64,000 nt of DNA from Candidatus Kapaibacterium sp. (GTDB taxonomy: Bacteria; Bacteroidota; Ignavibacteria; Kapaibacteriales; JAEUSM01): NCBI GenBank assembly GCA_016788785.1, contig JAEUSM010000006.1:310001-374000 (forward strand), written 5' to 3'. Numbering within the stretch: position 1 is the first letter of the stretch; each line of letters opens with the position of its first letter. The translations under genes were made by a program, and so were the position numbers. This document shows, in pieces, positions 5,302-50,182 of the stretch. The notes below the pieces were generated by a model. It searched no databases and had not been told where the DNA came from. It saw only the letters and a list, made by a program, of their open reading frames with translations.

Positions 5302-6084
5302 ATGAGATTTCTCAGAATACTTCTTCGTGTATTGATTGTTGTGGTAGTATTATCAACCATTGTATATGGAATCTACTTTTACAATACAGAAATACATAAA
5401 CAAGAAGAGTTTCTTCAACGAACAATAATTCAAGGAAATACTTTACTAAGTACTGAAGAAATTTCAGAAATTGCATCCATTCCTCTTAAAGGTACTCCAA
5501 TGAGTAGTATTGATAAACGAGGAATCGAAAATAGAATAAAGACTTTAGATTATATAGATTCAGTATCAGTAGAAACAGACGAACAAATTTTACGAATCAT
5601 CGTGAAAGAAGAACAACCAATTTCCTACATCGTCACAAACGATGGTTCAATAAGTTATGTTAGTCTTAAATCAAAAATATTGCCATTACGACAGTTTTAT
5701 CCTTCGTTAGATTTACCCATTATTCAAGGTATAAAATCACCGTCTGATACTGTATCGTCTCCACTCTTAAAAGAGGCAATTTCTTTAGTGAATGGGATAA
5801 GAAATTATGGTGACAATTACATTTATACAATTACCTCAGAAATCGTTTTTAAACCCGAAATTAGGGCTTTTTTGATTGTAACTTCTGAAAAACAAGAGAT
5901 TTTAATTGGCAATAGCAATAATTTAGATAACAAATTACAAAAATTATTGTATTTTTGGAATGCAGACAAAATATCAACCGCTGCGACTCGTTCAAAAACT
6001 ATAGATTTACGATGGAATGGTCAAGTGATTTTGAAATCAAAAAAAGCCATTCAAGTTGATACAGAAACTCAAAAAACAGCTTAA
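5302..6084 (+). CDS. ftsQ: Cell division protein FtsQ
   Basis: Bitopic division protein of 260 aa. One N-terminal transmembrane helix lies at about residues 5-27 after a short Arg-containing cytoplasmic tail. A POTRA domain follows (about 40-110) with the typical phrase I-Q-G-N-T-L-L-S-T-E-E-I, then the beta domain. FtsQ bridges cytoplasmic FtsA/FtsZ to the periplasmic division machinery through FtsB/FtsL. Sequence similarity in this family is low, so the call leans on fold landmarks plus the position directly before ftsA and ftsZ. The start is 3 bases after the preceding stop. Confidence 0.92.
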   Translation: MRFLRILLRVLIVVVVLSTIVYGIYFYNTEIHKQEEFLQRTIIQGNTLLSTEEISEIASIPLKGTPMSSIDKRGIENRIKTLDYIDSVSVETDEQILRIIVKEEQPISYIVTNDGSISYVSLKSKILPLRQFYPSLDLPIIQGIKSPSDTVSSPLLKEAISLVNGIRNYGDNYIYTITSEIVFKPEIRAFLIVTSEKQEILIGNSNNLDNKLQKLLYFWNADKISTAATRSKTIDLRWNGQVILKSKKAIQVDTETQKTA

Positions 6085-6098
6085 ATACTTTCTATTAT

Positions 6099-7481
6099 AT
6101 GACACTTAGTCAGACCTCAAATTATACCGATACAACTACTGTTCCACAAGATTCAGCCATTTATGTCGGCATCGACATAGGCAGTACGAAAGTATGTGTC
6201 ATTATTGCCAGATCTGTACCGAATGTAGGTGTTAATATCATTGGACTCGGAACTGCTGACAGCAACAATGGTGTTTTACGTGGTGTCATTGTCAATATCG
6301 AAAATACTACTCGTGCTATTCAACAAGCAATAGAAAAAGCACAACAAATGTCCGGAGTACAAGTCAAAAGTGCTGTAGTAGGTATTTCTGGTGATCATAT
6401 TCAAGTTTTACATACAAAAGCAGTAATTACTACGAACAATCCGAATCGAGAAATTACGCGTGCAGATGTACAACGCTTGATGGATGATTCACAACAAATT
6501 TCATTAAGCTCCGACAGAAAAATTCTTCACACAATACCGCAAAGTTTTGTTGTGGATGGTCAAGATGGTATCAAAGATCCAGTTGGTATGAGTGGACTTC
6601 GTGTTGATGCTGATGTTCATTTGGTTACTGCTGCAGGAACAAATTTACAGAATATATATCGTTGTTGTGAACGTGCAGGTATTGAAGTATCTGGATTAGT
6701 ATTAGAACCTATTGCTTCGGCAGCAGCAGTGTTGGATGAAGAAGAAAAGGATGTTGGAGTAGCAATTATTGATATAGGCGGAGGAACAACAGATATAGCT
6801 ATTTATCATAATAACGTTATCAGACTTACATCTTCTTTTGGTATAGCGGGAAAACAAGTTACCGATGATATTCGTGCTTGGTTAGGGATTACCTATGCAC
6901 AAGCTGAAAAAATAAAAAGAGATTTTGGTCATTGTATTGAAGAATCTATAGTACGTGATGAGCATTTTCCCGTCATAAAAACTACCAGAACACCTGTAGA
7001 AATTTCTAAAAGTGAATTGTGCAGAATCATTCAACCAAGAATGGAAGAAATTTTCGAATTTGTTTGGGGAGAAATTTCTCGCTCGAATATGGCTCCAAAA
7101 TTATCCGGTGGAATTGTTATAACGGGTGGAACAGCAAATCTTCGCGGTGCTGATTTATTAGCTCAACATATTTTTGGAATTTCTGTCAAATTAGGTATTC
7201 CAAATGGCATTGCAGAAAGAGCCTTAGCACCAGAAGCAATGAACCCGATGTACGCAACTGCAGTTGGACTTATCCTCTATGCAATTGAGGAAGGAAAAAA
7301 GGCAGAATATCTTTTACAAGAATCTGTTAGAGAAGAAATTCCTATTCGAGAAACATCCAGTTATATTAATTCTCGCATTGTTCAACCAAAGGTTCAACAA
7401 CCTATAAAACAAACAAAACCTACTAATCAGAATAACGGTAATTTTATCAAAAAAGTTGTTGATTGGTTTACTAAACTATAA
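6099..7481 (+). CDS. ftsA: Cell division protein FtsA
   Basis: Actin-like ATPase of 460 aa that tethers FtsZ to the membrane. The phosphate-1 loop GIDIGSTKVCVIIA lies at about 24-37, and the SHS2/1C insert with VVGISGDHIQ at about 90-100. The phosphate-2 loop DIGGGTTDIAIY is at about 224-235, and the adenosine motif GIVITGGTANLRG near 340-352. The extreme C-terminus NFIKKVVDWFTKL is an amphipathic membrane-targeting helix, preceded by a Gln/Pro-rich linker of about 40 residues. It lies between ftsQ and ftsZ on the same strand. Confidence 0.97.
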   Translation: MTLSQTSNYTDTTTVPQDSAIYVGIDIGSTKVCVIIARSVPNVGVNIIGLGTADSNNGVLRGVIVNIENTTRAIQQAIEKAQQMSGVQVKSAVVGISGDHIQVLHTKAVITTNNPNREITRADVQRLMDDSQQISLSSDRKILHTIPQSFVVDGQDGIKDPVGMSGLRVDADVHLVTAAGTNLQNIYRCCERAGIEVSGLVLEPIASAAAVLDEEEKDVGVAIIDIGGGTTDIAIYHNNVIRLTSSFGIAGKQVTDDIRAWLGITYAQAEKIKRDFGHCIEESIVRDEHFPVIKTTRTPVEISKSELCRIIQPRMEEIFEFVWGEISRSNMAPKLSGGIVITGGTANLRGADLLAQHIFGISVKLGIPNGIAERALAPEAMNPMYATAVGLILYAIEEGKKAEYLLQESVREEIPIRETSSYINSRIVQPKVQQPIKQTKPTNQNNGNFIKKVVDWFTKL

Positions 7482-7495
7482 TACTTACGAACATA

Positions 7496-7503
7496 TACAT
7501 TTG
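7496..7503 (+). promoter_or_regulatory. Possible ftsZ promoter, -7 element only
   Basis: TACATTTG matches the Bacteroidota -7 consensus TAnnTTTG exactly, 17 bases before the ftsZ ATG. No good TTTG -33 box lies 19-21 bases upstream (the closest is TTTA, 25 bases away), so this may be a weak or chance match. A separate ftsZ promoter behind ftsA would be biologically ordinary. Confidence 0.3.
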
Positions 7504-7520
7504 CAACAAAAGGTACGAAT

Positions 7521-8771
7521 ATGATTTCAATGGACTCCGAATTAATAAACGGTGCAAAGATACGAGTAATTGGTGTCGGTGGAGGTGGAGGTAATGCAGT
7601 TAATTCTATGATTGAAAGAGGACTTTCACATGTAGAATTTATCGTTGCCAATACAGATGCACAAGCATTGACAAAAAATCAAGCCGCAGTGAAAATTCAT
7701 GTTGGTAGAGAGTCTACTCGTGGGTTAGGTGCTGGTGCAGACCCAAAAGTTGGGAAACTTGCTGTGGAAGAAAGTATCCAAGAAATCAAAGACGCTCTTA
7801 CCGGTTCTGATATGATTTTTGTAACCGCTGGTATGGGTGGTGGAACCGGAACTGGTGGAGCTCCAGTTGTTGCTGCAATTGGTCGTGAGCTTGGTGCCTT
7901 AGTTGTTGGAATCGTTACCAAACCATTCAAATGGGAAGCTGCAAGAAGAGCCGCAATTGCTGAAGAAGGTATCAAAGAACTACGCTCAAAAGTGGATGCA
8001 CTGATCGTAATTCCTAATCAAAAGATTATGGATATTATCGATAAACAAACTACCTTTAAAACTGCATTTAGCAAGGTTGACGACGTACTCTATAATGCAA
8101 CTCGTGGTATTTCTGATATTATTTCTGGTAGTGGTCTTATTAACGTCGATTTTGCAGATGTGAAAACGATTATGAAAGATATGGGCGATGCTTTGATGGG
8201 TATGGGTGTCGCACAAGGTGAAAAACGTGCTACTAAAGCTGCCGAACTAGCTTTAAAATCTCCACTATTAGAGGGTCTTTCTATCAAAGGTGCAAAAGGA
8301 CTATTAGTAAATGTTACTGGCGGTAATGATCTGAAAATGACCGAAATTCAAGAGGCAATGGATACGATTCTGGCTGAGTCAGGAAGTGATTCCAATGTTA
8401 TTCATGGATTGAATATTGATGAAGCATTGGATGACTCAATCATGATTACTATTCTCGCAACTGGTTTCAATTCAAGTTCATCCATGGCTATTTCTGAAAC
8501 CTCCAATGTTGACAAATATGGAGTTCGAAGAACTGAAGCTACTCAAAGTGATCAGGTTGAACACTCAGTACCTTATTCTGGAACGTACAAACCAAAAGAA
8601 CAACGAACTCCTTCTACGTTACCAACACCAAACGATTATTCAGAATTAGATACACCCGCTTGGCAACGTAGACAACAACAAGGAAGTGTCCCTGTTCCAC
8701 GTCCAGCAGGTTCTAATCCAAATGATCCAAATAAAAGTTCTCAAAATTTTCTTCGTAATATGATTGATTAA
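7521..8771 (+). CDS. ftsZ: Cell division GTPase FtsZ
   Basis: Tubulin-like GTPase of 416 aa that forms the Z-ring. The N-terminal nucleotide loop is GVGGGGGNAVNSM (about 18-30), the tubulin signature GMGGGTGTGGAP starts near residue 104, and the T7 synergy loop NVDFADVKTIM is near 208. The conserved C-terminal peptide seems to be ELDTPAWQRR (about 375-384). It is followed by an unusual 32-residue Pro/Asn-rich tail that ends in NFLRNMID. The start is the ATG at 7521, 7 bases after AAAAGG; Met4 is an alternative. A possible own promoter lies just upstream, and an intrinsic terminator lies downstream inside the convergent gene. Confidence 0.98.
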   Translation: MISMDSELINGAKIRVIGVGGGGGNAVNSMIERGLSHVEFIVANTDAQALTKNQAAVKIHVGRESTRGLGAGADPKVGKLAVEESIQEIKDALTGSDMIFVTAGMGGGTGTGGAPVVAAIGRELGALVVGIVTKPFKWEAARRAAIAEEGIKELRSKVDALIVIPNQKIMDIIDKQTTFKTAFSKVDDVLYNATRGISDIISGSGLINVDFADVKTIMKDMGDALMGMGVAQGEKRATKAAELALKSPLLEGLSIKGAKGLLVNVTGGNDLKMTEIQEAMDTILAESGSDSNVIHGLNIDEALDDSIMITILATGFNSSSSMAISETSNVDKYGVRRTEATQSDQVEHSVPYSGTYKPKEQRTPSTLPTPNDYSELDTPAWQRRQQQGSVPVPRPAGSNPNDPNKSSQNFLRNMID

Positions 8772-44089: not shown

Positions 44090-44830
44090 ATGCAAATACA
44101 CGTTTCATTTCTGCCAATTGAAAACTTTGAACAGAACAACTTCTCAAAAGAGAATACCATTGTAATTGCTATAGATGTTCTTCGAGCAACTACGACAATG
44201 TTAACTGCATTTGAATTTGGAGCAACTTCCATTCTTCCTGTTACTACTGTAGAAGAAGCTTTAGAAATATTTGAAAAATCTCAACCGAATTCAGTACTTT
44301 TGGGTGGAGAAAGAAATAATATTAAACCAATCAAATTTCACTTTGGAAATTCCCCTTTTGAGTATCAAAATAAGGAAGTCTCGAATAAAAAGGTTATATT
44401 TACAACTACAAATGGAACAAAACTCTTACATAGATTACAAAATTTCCCAAAAATATATTTGGGTTGTTATAGAAACGTCGAGAGTTTAGTTCAGCATATT
44501 TGTATTCAAAGCAATGATAACACCAATATTTTAGTAGCATGTGCAGGATCGAATGATAAATTTTCTTTTGACGATGTACTTTGTGCTGGTGCTTTTGTAG
44601 ATGCTTTTCAATCAATATCTTCTGCAAATATACAACTGACTGATACTGCAAAAGTTGCTAAAATGCTTTACAGTCAATCCAAAAGTACTATTGTTGATTT
44701 TGTTAAAACAACATCGCACGGTGCTTCGTTAGTTGAAAGTGGATTTGAACAAGATGTAAACTATTGTTTTACGAAAAATTCTTCAAACATTATCGCGGTT
44801 TACGAACAAAACTTAGTGAAATCACTGTAA
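44090..44830 (+). CDS. comB: 2-phosphosulfolactate phosphatase family protein (ComB-like)
   Basis: ComB-family phosphatase of 246 aa. Hallmarks are VIAIDVLRATTTMLTAFEFG (about 25-44), ILPVTTVEEA, LLGGERN, FGNSPFEY and the phosphate-binding-like TTTNGT (about 105). In methanogens ComB makes sulfolactate on the way to coenzyme M. In bacteria the family is widespread and its role is mostly unproved. No comA or comC partner is in the window. It is followed after 8 bases by the FtsK-like gene, so the two probably share a transcript. Confidence 0.85.
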   Translation: MQIHVSFLPIENFEQNNFSKENTIVIAIDVLRATTTMLTAFEFGATSILPVTTVEEALEIFEKSQPNSVLLGGERNNIKPIKFHFGNSPFEYQNKEVSNKKVIFTTTNGTKLLHRLQNFPKIYLGCYRNVESLVQHICIQSNDNTNILVACAGSNDKFSFDDVLCAGAFVDAFQSISSANIQLTDTAKVAKMLYSQSKSTIVDFVKTTSHGASLVESGFEQDVNYCFTKNSSNIIAVYEQNLVKSL

Positions 44831-44838
44831 AATCAGTT

Positions 44839-47800
44839 ATGAAAAACTCCTTACTTTTACAACCCAATGAACAAACTTCTTTGCAAACACAATTGCGTGT
44901 TTTGGGAGTTTTGACATTTGTGCTTTCACTTTTTATGACAATTACCATTTTGTCGTATACACAATCGGATATTCAAAATGGTTCAGTTCCTTTTAAAGCG
45001 TTATTTGGATTCATTGAAGACATTGATGATTTTCGTGCTAAAGTTGAAATATCTCAAAATAAATTAGGATTACCAGGATCCTACATAGCAACCTACTGTG
45101 TTCATAAGTCCATTGGATATTGGTCTTTAGTGCTGAGTTTTTTATTGGCAGCATGTACTTGGGAAGTTTTTGTTAATGGATTTTTGGGTTTCAATTTCTT
45201 TCGTAGAAGTTTTTGGATTGTTCTTTTAGCTGTATCTATGAGTGTATTATCCTCAATAGTCCAAGCAACCATACTTCCAACCTTACCTACAGAATTCACA
45301 GGTGCATTATCAAATTTCATTGCAAAAAGTCTTTTAATCGGAATTGGAAAATTAGGAGCTTTTCTATTCGTTAGTTTGTCGATACTTGCTTCTGTTGCCA
45401 ATATTTTTACGTATGGTTTGAGTGGTCTGTATCTTTCGACTCGCAAAAAACAAGAACCTACTATTCCTGATGACATACTTCGTGCTCAAGCGAGATATTA
45501 TGTTGATATTTATTCTGATGATGAAGAGCCAATTGAAGTTCTTCGTTCTACAGTTGATGTAGCCGACGATATCGATAACCAAAGCCAAATTGAAGAAGAA
45601 ATTGAAAATTCTCTTACTGTTGAAGAATTACCAAGTGCATTAGTACCTATTGAGGAAGTCGAAGATTTTGATGATTATTCTGATTCTAATGATATTTTAC
45701 AACCAGTAGAAGTTTTAGAATCAATTGAGGAATTTTCTCTTCAACCTGACGAACTATCACAAACTGAAGCCGTTCCATATGAAGATTTTGATGTTATAAC
45801 TCCTACGATTATTGGGTCAGTTCCTGTTGAGGTATACGAAGATGTTGTGACAACAGAGGAAGAAGTTGTTGAACAAAGGTTTTCAAGTACTGAAATTCCA
45901 AACAATTACATTGTTGAGCATGAACCTACTGAATCTGTTTTTGAAGAAATTGAAAGTGAAATAGTTTCTGAAACTGAACAGCCAAATGAGATTGAATCAA
46001 TTTCTGTTAACGACCCAGAGTCGATAGAGGTTGTTGAAGAAGAAACCATCAACCAAATTTCTGATAAGATAGTAGATTCTCCAATTGTTTTAGCTGTTCC
46101 TGAAGAACAATATATCGAGGAAGTTGTGAACGAATCGGTTGAAGAAGAGGACATTGAAACTCCGATTTCCTTCGAACGTATTGAATTTTTAACCGAAGAA
46201 CCGAGCAATCAAACTATCTTTATGCCTCAATTGGGTGAAACTATTCTTCCTGATTTTGAGGAAATTGGGGAAATTGAACTTGATGAGGATATGGTTGATA
46301 GTGTGATGGAAGAATTTCCTGTTGTAATTGAAGAAACTGAGGAAATTTTACCTGAACAACATGATACACCTGAAGAAACAATTGTTGTTTCAACCCCAAA
46401 TATTTCTCCAATTTCAACCGAGCCTACACAAAGTGTTCTTCCTTTTGAATTTGCTCCAACTCCTACATCTTCGAAAGATCTATCGACTAAGACAAGATAT
46501 TTAGTAGATTTCACCCAAGAATCACAACAATCTAATACTGCATTATTACGAGCTAAATTAGAAAGTGTTCACATCCCATTTAGTTCAATCGAAGAACAAG
46601 ATACCTTGCTTACAACTAAATATACTTTGTATTTTATCAAATCTTTTGATTCCATTCAAGCACAAGCAATGCACAGCGAAGTAATTGAGGCATTGAAGGC
46701 ACCGGGAGTTGTAATAGAATCGTATCTTAACACGGAAAAAAGTATTGTTGTTGAAATTCCAAAAAAGAATCTACAAGAAATAATTTCTGCAATTAAGGTT
46801 GTTCAACCAAATACAAAAGGTATTTTACCCATAGATTTTGGTTACAAAAACAATGGAGATGTCATTCGATTGGATGTAACTGAGTGTTACAACATTCTTA
46901 TTGGAGGTGCCAATGGTACGGGTAAAACCAATCTCTTGGTTTCCATGATACATTCACTTTCTAAAAACAATGATGCAGTTTCATTAAAGTATCTTCCGAT
47001 TATTTTGAATACACATCCGTATTCATCTGTCGAACCAATTTTCAAACATTCGTTTGCTGTTGTTGAAAGTGATGAACAACGTACCATTCATACAACAGAA
47101 ATTCATGCACTTCAAGCTATCAAAGCGTTATTTTTTGAAACAAAAAAACGGTTAGAGCTCTTTGATGCAGAAAGAAAAACTACTATTTCAGCATATAATT
47201 ATCTAAAAAATCCGTTAGAACAACTTCCGTATATTGTCACAATCATTGACCCAATTGAAATGATTTCAGCACATAAAGAATCTCGAGAATATTTATCAGT
47301 CATCTTGTTGTGCGGAAGTGCTGTTGGTATCCATGTATTGGCACAACTCAAAAATGTACCAAGTATCGATACATTATTATTACAAAGATTCCCTTGCACA
47401 ATAGCGTCGTTTACAAATTCAAAAACATCTTCTCGACTATTGCTCCAACAATCAACAAGTGCAGAGGGTTTATTATCGTCAAATGATTTTATATTCAATA
47501 GCTCAACATATTCTCAAAAAACATATTTCCGCTTTTTTATGAGTAGTGAATTGAAATATTCATCATCTGTGCAAAATTTGCGTCAAGATTCTTATCCTTA
47601 TCATTTGCCAAAAATTGAACAAAAAGAACAAGTAGGTTCTAAAAATATTGACCCAATGTTGCTCAAAATAGCAGAATTTGTAGTGAAAGAACAAAAAGCG
47701 TTGATTGGTTCTATTTTACACAAATTCAACTTATCATTCGAAGACACTGTATCATATATTACACAATTGGAAAAAGCTGGAATTTTAAGTCAATACAATC

Positions 47801-47856
47801 AAAATAATCGAACAGTTTTAGTAAAAGATATTTCCGATTTACCACGATATTTATAG
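44839..47856 (+). CDS. FtsK/SpoIIIE-like DNA translocase with degenerate motor motifs
   Basis: A 1005-aa protein from the ATG at 44839; the longer frame from 44764 overlaps comB. Order: four transmembrane helices (about 15-195), a very acidic linker (about 210-560), an FtsK alpha-like domain (about 575-665), a RecA-like beta domain and a gamma winged helix (about 937-1005). Walker A is GGANGTGKTN near 688. The Walker B position reads VTIIDPIEMI, with Pro where FtsK has the catalytic Glu, and the DPK segment of FtsK is replaced by NTHPYSS. It has FtsK architecture, but ATP-driven DNA pumping is uncertain. It precedes recN directly. A second, canonical FtsK may exist outside the window. Confidence 0.8.
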   Translation: MKNSLLLQPNEQTSLQTQLRVLGVLTFVLSLFMTITILSYTQSDIQNGSVPFKALFGFIEDIDDFRAKVEISQNKLGLPGSYIATYCVHKSIGYWSLVLSFLLAACTWEVFVNGFLGFNFFRRSFWIVLLAVSMSVLSSIVQATILPTLPTEFTGALSNFIAKSLLIGIGKLGAFLFVSLSILASVANIFTYGLSGLYLSTRKKQEPTIPDDILRAQARYYVDIYSDDEEPIEVLRSTVDVADDIDNQSQIEEEIENSLTVEELPSALVPIEEVEDFDDYSDSNDILQPVEVLESIEEFSLQPDELSQTEAVPYEDFDVITPTIIGSVPVEVYEDVVTTEEEVVEQRFSSTEIPNNYIVEHEPTESVFEEIESEIVSETEQPNEIESISVNDPESIEVVEEETINQISDKIVDSPIVLAVPEEQYIEEVVNESVEEEDIETPISFERIEFLTEEPSNQTIFMPQLGETILPDFEEIGEIELDEDMVDSVMEEFPVVIEETEEILPEQHDTPEETIVVSTPNISPISTEPTQSVLPFEFAPTPTSSKDLSTKTRYLVDFTQESQQSNTALLRAKLESVHIPFSSIEEQDTLLTTKYTLYFIKSFDSIQAQAMHSEVIEALKAPGVVIESYLNTEKSIVVEIPKKNLQEIISAIKVVQPNTKGILPIDFGYKNNGDVIRLDVTECYNILIGGANGTGKTNLLVSMIHSLSKNNDAVSLKYLPIILNTHPYSSVEPIFKHSFAVVESDEQRTIHTTEIHALQAIKALFFETKKRLELFDAERKTTISAYNYLKNPLEQLPYIVTIIDPIEMISAHKESREYLSVILLCGSAVGIHVLAQLKNVPSIDTLLLQRFPCTIASFTNSKTSSRLLLQQSTSAEGLLSSNDFIFNSSTYSQKTYFRFFMSSELKYSSSVQNLRQDSYPYHLPKIEQKEQVGSKNIDPMLLKIAEFVVKEQKALIGSILHKFNLSFEDTVSYITQLEKAGILSQYNQNNRTVLVKDISDLPRYL

Positions 47857-47857
47857 G

Positions 47858-49576
47858 ATGTTACATTCCCTTTCTATCGAAAACTTTACTCTTATTGATT
47901 CTGTTTCTCTTCAGTTTTCCGAAGGTTTATCAATCATTACAGGAGAAACTGGTGCAGGAAAATCTATTCTTTTCGATGCGATTTTGTATGTTCTAGGTGA
48001 ACGGTTTTCTCAAGATATATTAAAAGATTCTACAAAAAAAACCATTGTTGAAATTACATTTTCTTCTACATCATCCTTACAAGTATTACTAGAACAACTT
48101 GGTTTTGATTCTTATCCTGATACTATTGTCTTGCGACGTGAATTATCACCAAAAGGAGTAACAAGATGTTTTGTCAACGATACACCAACGACTGTTGCAA
48201 ATTTAAAAACAATTGGAACACAGATTGTAGACTTTCACGGACAATTTGACACACAAACCATTCTTGCAAAAACAAACTATTTTTCTTTAATAGATTCACT
48301 GTCAACAACTACGACATTTTTGGAAGAATATGAAAAGTTCTATGCTCAATTAACGGAAAAAATTCACGAACTTGCAGAAATAAAAGAAAAAATTCGTTCA
48401 GCAAATGAAGTAAAAGATTATTATCAATTGCAATTGGAAGAATTAGAAACTATCAATCCAAGTTTAGGTGAGATTGAAGAAAAAGAACAATTGTTAAAAA
48501 AATTAGAAAATGCAGAAGACATTTTCTTTCGCACCAATACTATTGCCTCGTTATTACAAGATGATGCAAATGCGGTCTTACCTTCAATCCGTTCCATTGA
48601 GAAAGAATTTGACAAATTGCAACGTTTTGACCCAGCTTTTGAATTGTATTCCAAAGAATTACAACAAGCCTTCATCATTTTATCAGAAGTTCATAATTTT
48701 GTTCAACATTACAACCGAGATGTCGATTTTTCTGAAGAACAAGTTCTACAAATAAGACTACGTTTACAAGAACTTCATAAAATTCGTAAAAAGTATGGCT
48801 CAATTGAACATGCGTTAGAAAAACAAAATTTTTTCCTTTCTCAATTAGAACTTTCCAACAATTCTCAGGAAATTCAATATCAAATCGAACAGCAAATTAC
48901 TTCAATTCGTCAACAACTTTCCAAAAGTACATTCTTACTTTTTACTGCACGAAAACAAACAGTACTTGCTGTTGAAAAATCGATTAATGCCATTTTGAAA
49001 AAATTAGGTATGGTTCATTCTACCTTCCAATGTGTGTATAATTACACCACTATTGCACAACCTCAGAATGAAATGTATATCCCAGATCAATCTTCAGATG
49101 GATTTTGTCCTTTACATAAAAATGGAATTGGTTCAATAGATTTTCTCTTTAGTTCCAATCCCGGTGTTGAGCCCAAAAGTCTTTCTTCCATTGCCTCTGG
49201 AGGAGAAATTTCTCGTGTAATGTTAGCATTAAAATCAATAGTTGCTGATAAAGATTCATTACAATTGCTTATTTTTGATGAAATTGATACAGGAATTTCC
49301 GGAAGTATAGCACAAAAAGTTGGGATTGTTATGAAACAATTGTCAGTAAAAAAACAGATTTTAGCTATAACCCATTTACCGCAAATTGCAGCATTAGCTG
49401 ATACACATTTTTTGGTACAAAAAGATACTTCGGCAAATAAAACGTCTATATCAATACAAACCTTACCAAAAAGTGAAATGTACAATGAAGTTGCTCGGCT
49501 TTTGAGTGGTGAGAATATAACTGCTTCGTCACTTCAAATAGCAAAAGAGTTAGCTACGATTCCATTAGATTTTTAA
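47858..49576 (+). CDS. recN: DNA repair protein RecN
   Basis: SMC-like ATPase of 572 aa acting in double-strand break repair. Walker A is GETGAGKSILFDAI at about 30-43. Two coiled-coil arms lie at about 160-230 and 285-370. The ABC signature SSIASGGEISRVMLAL lies near 445, and Walker B LLIFDEIDTGISG near 472-484. A conserved DFHGQFDTQ is at about 125-133. The length is normal for RecN. It starts one base after the FtsK-like stop and is followed 3 bases later by the HD-domain gene, so the operon seems tightly coupled. Confidence 0.96.
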   Translation: MLHSLSIENFTLIDSVSLQFSEGLSIITGETGAGKSILFDAILYVLGERFSQDILKDSTKKTIVEITFSSTSSLQVLLEQLGFDSYPDTIVLRRELSPKGVTRCFVNDTPTTVANLKTIGTQIVDFHGQFDTQTILAKTNYFSLIDSLSTTTTFLEEYEKFYAQLTEKIHELAEIKEKIRSANEVKDYYQLQLEELETINPSLGEIEEKEQLLKKLENAEDIFFRTNTIASLLQDDANAVLPSIRSIEKEFDKLQRFDPAFELYSKELQQAFIILSEVHNFVQHYNRDVDFSEEQVLQIRLRLQELHKIRKKYGSIEHALEKQNFFLSQLELSNNSQEIQYQIEQQITSIRQQLSKSTFLLFTARKQTVLAVEKSINAILKKLGMVHSTFQCVYNYTTIAQPQNEMYIPDQSSDGFCPLHKNGIGSIDFLFSSNPGVEPKSLSSIASGGEISRVMLALKSIVADKDSLQLLIFDEIDTGISGSIAQKVGIVMKQLSVKKQILAITHLPQIAALADTHFLVQKDTSANKTSISIQTLPKSEMYNEVARLLSGENITASSLQIAKELATIPLDF

Positions 49577-49579
49577 TCA

Positions 49580-50182
49580 ATGCAATACCATAAATCCTTT
49601 TACAGTTTAGATGAAATTCGGGAAAAACTCCTTCCCAGCATAGACCCTATCTCCATGCTGAAAATAGTTGACGCATATGAGTTATCGTCAAATGTGCACC
49701 AATTTCAAGTGAGAAATGATGGTACTAAGTACTTTAATCATTGTTCAAGAGTTTGTAAAATACTTATTGAGGAATTGTATATCACAGATCCAACGGTGTT
49801 ATGTGCAGCGTTATTACATGATGTTTTAGAAGATTCTGATGTTTTAACTGTTTCTGTCATTGAGTATAATTTTGGGAAAACTGTGGCAGAATATGTGGAA
49901 ATTTTAACAAAAGATTTGAATTCGTACAAACAAAATCCTGATATTGTAGATTTAGAGCATTTGTTTATTTTAGAACAAGCACCTGATGATGTTTTAATTA
50001 TAAAGTTAGCAGCCAGATTGGATAATTTCCGTTGTTTAGAATTCAATCTCAAAAGAAATCCATTGGTGTATATTCAAAAAACCACCGAACAATTTGTTCC
50101 TTTAGCAGAACAAAGAAAGAATAAGAAATTGGATTATTTAGTTTCGGAAATTAAAAAAGAACGGAATAAATTCCTTGGGTAA
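49580..50182 (+). CDS. Small HD-domain protein, MESH1/SpoT-hydrolase-like
   Basis: A 200-aa HD protein resembling the hydrolase half of RelA/SpoT, with no synthetase domain, so like small alarmone hydrolases. The motifs are H54 in FNHCSRVCKIL, H80-D81 in LLHDVLEDSDV with E84-D85, and LAARLDN at 143-149. In ppGpp hydrolases the last motif is LADRxxN and its Asp binds the Mn ion. Here that Asp is Ala145, with D148 nearby. Activity is therefore uncertain. It begins 3 bases after recN and overlaps the OstA-like gene by 8 bases. Confidence 0.82.
   Translation: MQYHKSFYSLDEIREKLLPSIDPISMLKIVDAYELSSNVHQFQVRNDGTKYFNHCSRVCKILIEELYITDPTVLCAALLHDVLEDSDVLTVSVIEYNFGKTVAEYVEILTKDLNSYKQNPDIVDLEHLFILEQAPDDVLIIKLAARLDNFRCLEFNLKRNPLVYIQKTTEQFVPLAEQRKNKKLDYLVSEIKKERNKFLG

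Follow-up and report, generated by a model that had tools for sequence, protein, structure and literature searches.

Probable in-place decay of the DNA-pumping half of the only FtsK in a Candidatus Kapaibacterium genome

We analysed a window of 64,000 nt from Candidatus Kapaibacterium sp. (GCA_016788785.1, contig JAEUSM010000006.1, positions 310,001-374,000, forward strand); gene and domain coordinates below are those of the window unless another locus is named. The window holds an ftsK orthologue, P0001 (44839..47856, +; 1005 aa), an intact open reading frame with 0 internal stops that encodes the only PF01580 protein of the genome. Upstream lies a conserved neighbour, a comB-like gene for 2-phosphosulpholactate phosphatase (44090..44830, +). 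Downstream, after a 1-base gap, are recN (47858..49576, +), which follows canonical ftsK in relatives too, and a conserved HD-domain gene (49580..50182, +). A cluster of ftsQ, ftsA and ftsZ is intact at 5302-8771 of the same window. The reading frame, coordinates, motif readings and gap to recN given in the initial annotation of this DNA were all correct on re-checking.

P0001 has the 4TM-linker-alpha-beta-gamma plan claimed for it, with Pfam matches to the membrane domain, the motor and, below the cut-off, the gamma domain. The N-terminal four-helix membrane domain (44839..45483, +) matched FtsK_4TM (PF13491) above the cut-off at residues 21-191 (E 6e-9 in one search and 2.2e-10 in another). 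It is followed by a strongly acidic linker of ~330 aa (45484..46473, +; 29% D+E, 2% K+R) with a net charge of -28 per 100 residues, as compared to +3 to -18 in relatives; its acidity exceeds that of every relative checked. This acidity may be one more sign that the linker has ceased to handle DNA. The C-terminal half consists of the alpha domain (46474..46830, +), the RecA-like beta domain (46831..47628, +) and the gamma winged helix (47629..47853, +). FtsK_SpoIIIE (PF01580) matched residues 659-795 (2.3e-6, 27.7 bits against a cut-off of 24), though the match is partial (14-143/221) and relatives score ~190 bits; FtsK_gamma (PF09397) matched residues 938-995 at 7e-6 and 26.1 bits, below its cut-off of 30.6.

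To place individual residues, we aligned P0001 with 33 canonical FtsKs from related genomes, using P. aeruginosa FtsK for reference numbering and published residue roles (R620 as arginine finger, R548 as second trans arginine, T630 as phosphosensor and R632 as DNA-gripping residue; PMC9410874). The Walker A signature G-x4-G-K-T is present at 690-697, including K696 and T697 (GANGTGKT, G690-T697; 46906..46929, +), and the Walker B aspartate is present as D804. The catalytic glutamate E596, which is Glu in 33/33 relatives, is replaced by P805 (D804-P805, 47248..47253, +), and the DPK strand reads PIILNTHPY where relatives have IIDPKKVE. The initial annotation had already noted the kept Walker A, the lost Walker B glutamate and the lost DPK segment, and all three readings held in the alignment. 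The losses reach far beyond these, however. The arginine finger R620 is now S827 (47317..47319, +) and R548 is T781; the phosphosensor and loop II residues T630-Q631-R632 read A835-Q836-L837 (47341..47349, +), such that only Q631 is kept; D599 is deleted, appearing as an alignment gap, and the K643-equivalent is also lost. In the gamma domain, the binding surface for KOPS DNA and XerD (PMC5052618; QR..GYxRAAR) is replaced residue by residue, with the QR and G-Y/N positions of the QR-GN motif (PMC5357621) reading LH and S-F-E. P0001 retains 65 of the 174 columns that are invariant in relatives (37%), whereas the worst canonical sequence retains 89% and the median is 99%. The lost positions are invariant or nearly so among the 33 relatives and, as judged from this alignment, their loss is due neither to chance nor to misalignment.

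These results bear on whether P0001 could be diverged yet still active as a translocase, with hydrolysis and DNA gripping taken over by other residues, for example E807 near Walker B. In favour of this, it retains the fold, Walker A, the Walker B Asp and Q631, and E807 is three positions away from that Asp. Against it, the arginine finger, R548, the loop-II Arg, the K643-equivalent and D599 are all missing at the same time, as are the surface by which gamma reads DNA and the Xer partners (see below). It is improbable that so many features were rebuilt simultaneously, and we therefore regard an active translocase as unlikely. We also rejected a mere displacement of the catalytic glutamate: E807 is at hand, but all trans-acting partners have been lost too. 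The initial suggestion that P0001 may bind ATP without translocating DNA is thus supported, as the alignment indicates that P0001 has lost, besides the Walker B glutamate, every trans-acting and DNA-gripping residue, and the active site of the beta domain appears dead.

To quantify where decay acts, we calculated rate ratios on a common set of taxa for all genes, taking the mean distance between the protein of this genome and its relatives over the mean distance of those relatives from one another. Neighbouring proteins gave ratios of 1.1-1.4 (comB), 1.9-2.0 (RecN) and 1.4 (HD protein). Within FtsK, the ratio was 1.3-1.7 for the 4TM domain, ~12 for alpha, 7-8 for beta and 5-8 for gamma. By this measure decay is domain-specific: the membrane domain shows the usual level of constraint, unlike the motor and reading domains, and alpha, beta and gamma are at ~5-12x the level of relatives, with constraint on alpha apparently lost. 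The branch of the C-terminal half is very long (2-7 substitutions per site).

We next assessed whether this half still folds by running AlphaFold2 on an alignment of P0001 and 30 FtsK motors from viral contigs. The C-terminal half was predicted with a mean pLDDT of 77.5, large parts of beta and gamma reaching 80-96, and its predicted fold, alpha and gamma domains included, is that of the FtsK motor; this fold was guided by the canonical homologues in the alignment, which may have helped impose it. Foldseek placed FtsK motor structures first (2ius, 2iut, 6t8o and 6t8b; E ~1e-20). The alignment was drawn from a scan of viral contigs with the beta domain; scanning them with alpha-domain patterns found no FtsK relatives. 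Two short patterns matched 369 viral contigs (L130-L209), which encode canonical FtsK beta-domain relatives that are 41-56% identical among the matches listed.

It is possible to read such a branch as a pseudogene in progress, in which the C-terminal half drifts without constraint while the membrane domain ahead of it stays necessary. The 2-7 substitutions per site would fit this, and so would the chemistry of the lost invariant residues, which come from every class, and the example of a second genome, G489, in which a deletion has removed the C-terminal half. Nevertheless, the C-terminal 460 codons are free of stops, where a base-shuffled sequence would hold ~35, and their codon-position composition has the same periodicity as recN. 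Moreover, identity with canonical motors is still 26-30% and all Walker A signature residues have been retained over the long branch. Simple degeneration does not describe the C-terminal half, and we consider the pseudogene explanation improbable.

In canonical systems FtsK acts with XerC and XerD. We searched the whole genome for both with profiles and found neither. The genome encodes two tyrosine recombinases only, at 57-86 bits against XerC/XerD cut-offs of 330-335, and one of them carries Arm-DNA-bind_5. XerD was found in 60/60 sampled relatives (282-374 bits), 58/60 above the family cut-off, and nearly all 60 had a second recombinase match in the XerC range. Among 392 phylum genomes that are at least 95% complete, the best XerD match of this genome was the weakest (2.6e-18). 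RecA is present and intact, so chromosome dimers should still form. The absence of XerC and XerD, which lay outside the initial annotation, gives a context for the decay of the motor. We found ~48 other phylum genomes without a strong XerD match, and all but one keep a canonical motor, which indicates that losing XerD is not in itself enough to drive loss of the motor; loss of Xer may permit loss of the motor and does not force it. In several families (f33, f38, f50, f52, f53, f63 and others) canonical FtsK motors are kept without a strong XerD match, and dimer resolution there may be of the single-recombinase type. How Xer-less bacteria handle dimers is a question that has been posed for the 12% of proteobacterial species lacking the system (PMC2731167, PMC5357621).

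The two recombinases of this genome lie in other loci. The first (L089 5873-6955; G000 C6, ~119872-120954) is a complete tyrosine recombinase of the Arm-DNA-bind_5/SAM_5 type that ends 3 bases before the next gene, with apparent alternative-complex-III genes on one side and rbfA-truB-lgt-like genes on the other. Full-length relatives occur in only ~1/5 of the order and, together with its domain type, this makes it look like a mobile-type integrase, though it is a possible Xer stand-in. The second (L090 5122-6629; G000 C17) lies directly behind a PIN-type-toxin-like gene and is probably on a mobile island.

We also considered that a canonical FtsK and XerCD exist and are missing from the 18-contig assembly. 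The genome is not closed, and other surveyed genomes are without ftsK through contig breaks or missing stretches; however, this 2.97-Mb genome is 99.45% complete, its ftsK locus is intact with the ancestral neighbours, and three separate genes would need to be absent together, making an assembly gap very improbable. The order comB-ftsK-recN-HD is common to three loci with canonical ftsK from other families of the order (L041, L048 and L052), and other relatives have comB or recN alone beside ftsK. As P0001 is the sole PF01580 match and sits at this ancestral locus, it is a decayed orthologue of canonical FtsK. An undescribed paralogue class, in which P0001 would be a checkpoint scaffold beside a canonical FtsK, could account for lost motor motifs and a kept Walker A, but it is extremely unlikely, since the genome has no second FtsK, the locus is the canonical one, and there are 0 other members among 123 genomes of the order and the sampled class and phylum. 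Among the 123 genomes of the order, no motor was more than ~30% identical to P0001, and no second species with a motor decayed in place was found there or in the sampled class and phylum; scans of genome contigs likewise turned up no close relative. The proposed functional coupling to recN-type repair is likewise without support, because canonical ftsK adjoins recN in relatives too and the adjacency is ancestral. Of the initial interpretation, then, the non-translocating part stands, and the paralogue class and the recN link do not.

A second motor loss was found in the same phylum. In G489, the sole FtsK-like gene (L084 8314-9078; C1, ~1118313-1119077) is a 255-residue membrane-domain open reading frame in the order comB, this frame, purK, purE, and relatives have comB-ftsK-purK-purE with a full FtsK. 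Its assignment is by position and weak similarity to the N-terminal domains of relatives (34% over 166 residues, 3e-11), and Pfam recognised no domain in it. The motor of G489 was lost by clean deletion, a route different from and independent of that of P0001. G489 and its family have no strong XerD match, and sampled siblings keep the motor. In the phylum survey, G489 is the one other genome truly without a motor, leaving aside G265, G097, G100 and G205, in which FtsK was apparently missing. We rejected apparent losses in G448, G454, G457, G043 and G056, which are contig-edge or split fragments, and in G035 and G041, where recN is absent too and a stretch of the assembly is therefore missing. 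G489, which keeps the N-terminal part without a motor, shows that FtsK can persist in nature as the membrane domain alone.

Taken together, we propose, with a probability of roughly 0.78, that P0001 is the sole FtsK and direct orthologue, that the half which pumps and reads DNA in canonical FtsK has decayed in place, and that the protein is non-translocating and kept for division; from its sequence, this non-translocating, division-retained state is the most likely one. Given its losses, P0001 would be able neither to translocate DNA nor to activate dimer resolution. Its division role would stay with the N-terminal domain, which would be needed in the divisome, as this domain is the part required for division in E. 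coli (PMC3870252). The chief need for the motor probably fell away with the loss of XerCD-dif dimer resolution. The E. coli ftsK K997A mutant, which is unable to pump DNA, propagates, with chains and some lysis (PMC5345879), suggesting that a non-pumping FtsK state is viable. The folded C-terminal half may persist as a non-hydrolysing scaffold, an oligomerisation module or a binding platform, comparable with the role of certain FtsK-type ATPase domains in type VII secretion. Judging by the intact signature, it probably still binds nucleotide at Walker A, although retention of Walker A could be a leftover.

A broader statement, to which we give even odds, is that a lineage with a 3-Mb genome and intact RecA has abandoned FtsK/XerCD dimer resolution, leaving its sole FtsK as a nucleotide-binding, non-translocating divisome scaffold under selection. 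If so, the division and motor roles of FtsK have been separated in nature, and these cells avoid chromosome dimers or resolve them via a route not yet described. The separability of the division function from the motor has so far been studied with laboratory mutants. Here the separation would have occurred twice in one phylum, by decay with the fold kept in P0001 and by deletion in G489. This bears on how Xer-less bacteria deal with chromosome dimers, and the sequence of P0001 may show which C-terminal parts stay worthwhile without DNA pumping.

Finally, we compared P0001 to known systems. It shares its locus, plan, Walker A and predicted motor fold with the canonical FtsK of E. coli and P. 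aeruginosa (PF13491, PF17854, PF01580 and PF09397), but lacks the catalytic Glu, arginine finger, loop-II Arg, DPK strand and KOPS/XerD surface, in a genome without XerC and XerD. Foldseek also links it to ATPase domains 2-3 of EccC and EssC of type VII secretion, which have an FtsK/SpoIIIE-type ATPase fold; NCBIfam EccC matches to P0001 were weak (E 0.007-0.013). Some of the EccC/EssC ATPase domains have a degenerate catalytic site and, rather than powering transport, act by binding a partner. These proteins differ from P0001 in having several tandem ATPase domains, as opposed to its one, a secretion context and no gamma domain. The E. coli K997A and C-terminal truncation mutants are division-competent without DNA pumping (PMC5345879, PMC3870252), like the state proposed for P0001; unlike them, P0001 is natural and fixed, and it keeps the ATP-binding lysine and has lost hydrolysis and DNA-contact residues. 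The FtsK of G489, from the same phylum, is also a sole FtsK-like gene with a membrane domain at the ancestral comB locus and no motor; there the motor was deleted cleanly, whereas in P0001 it has decayed in place.
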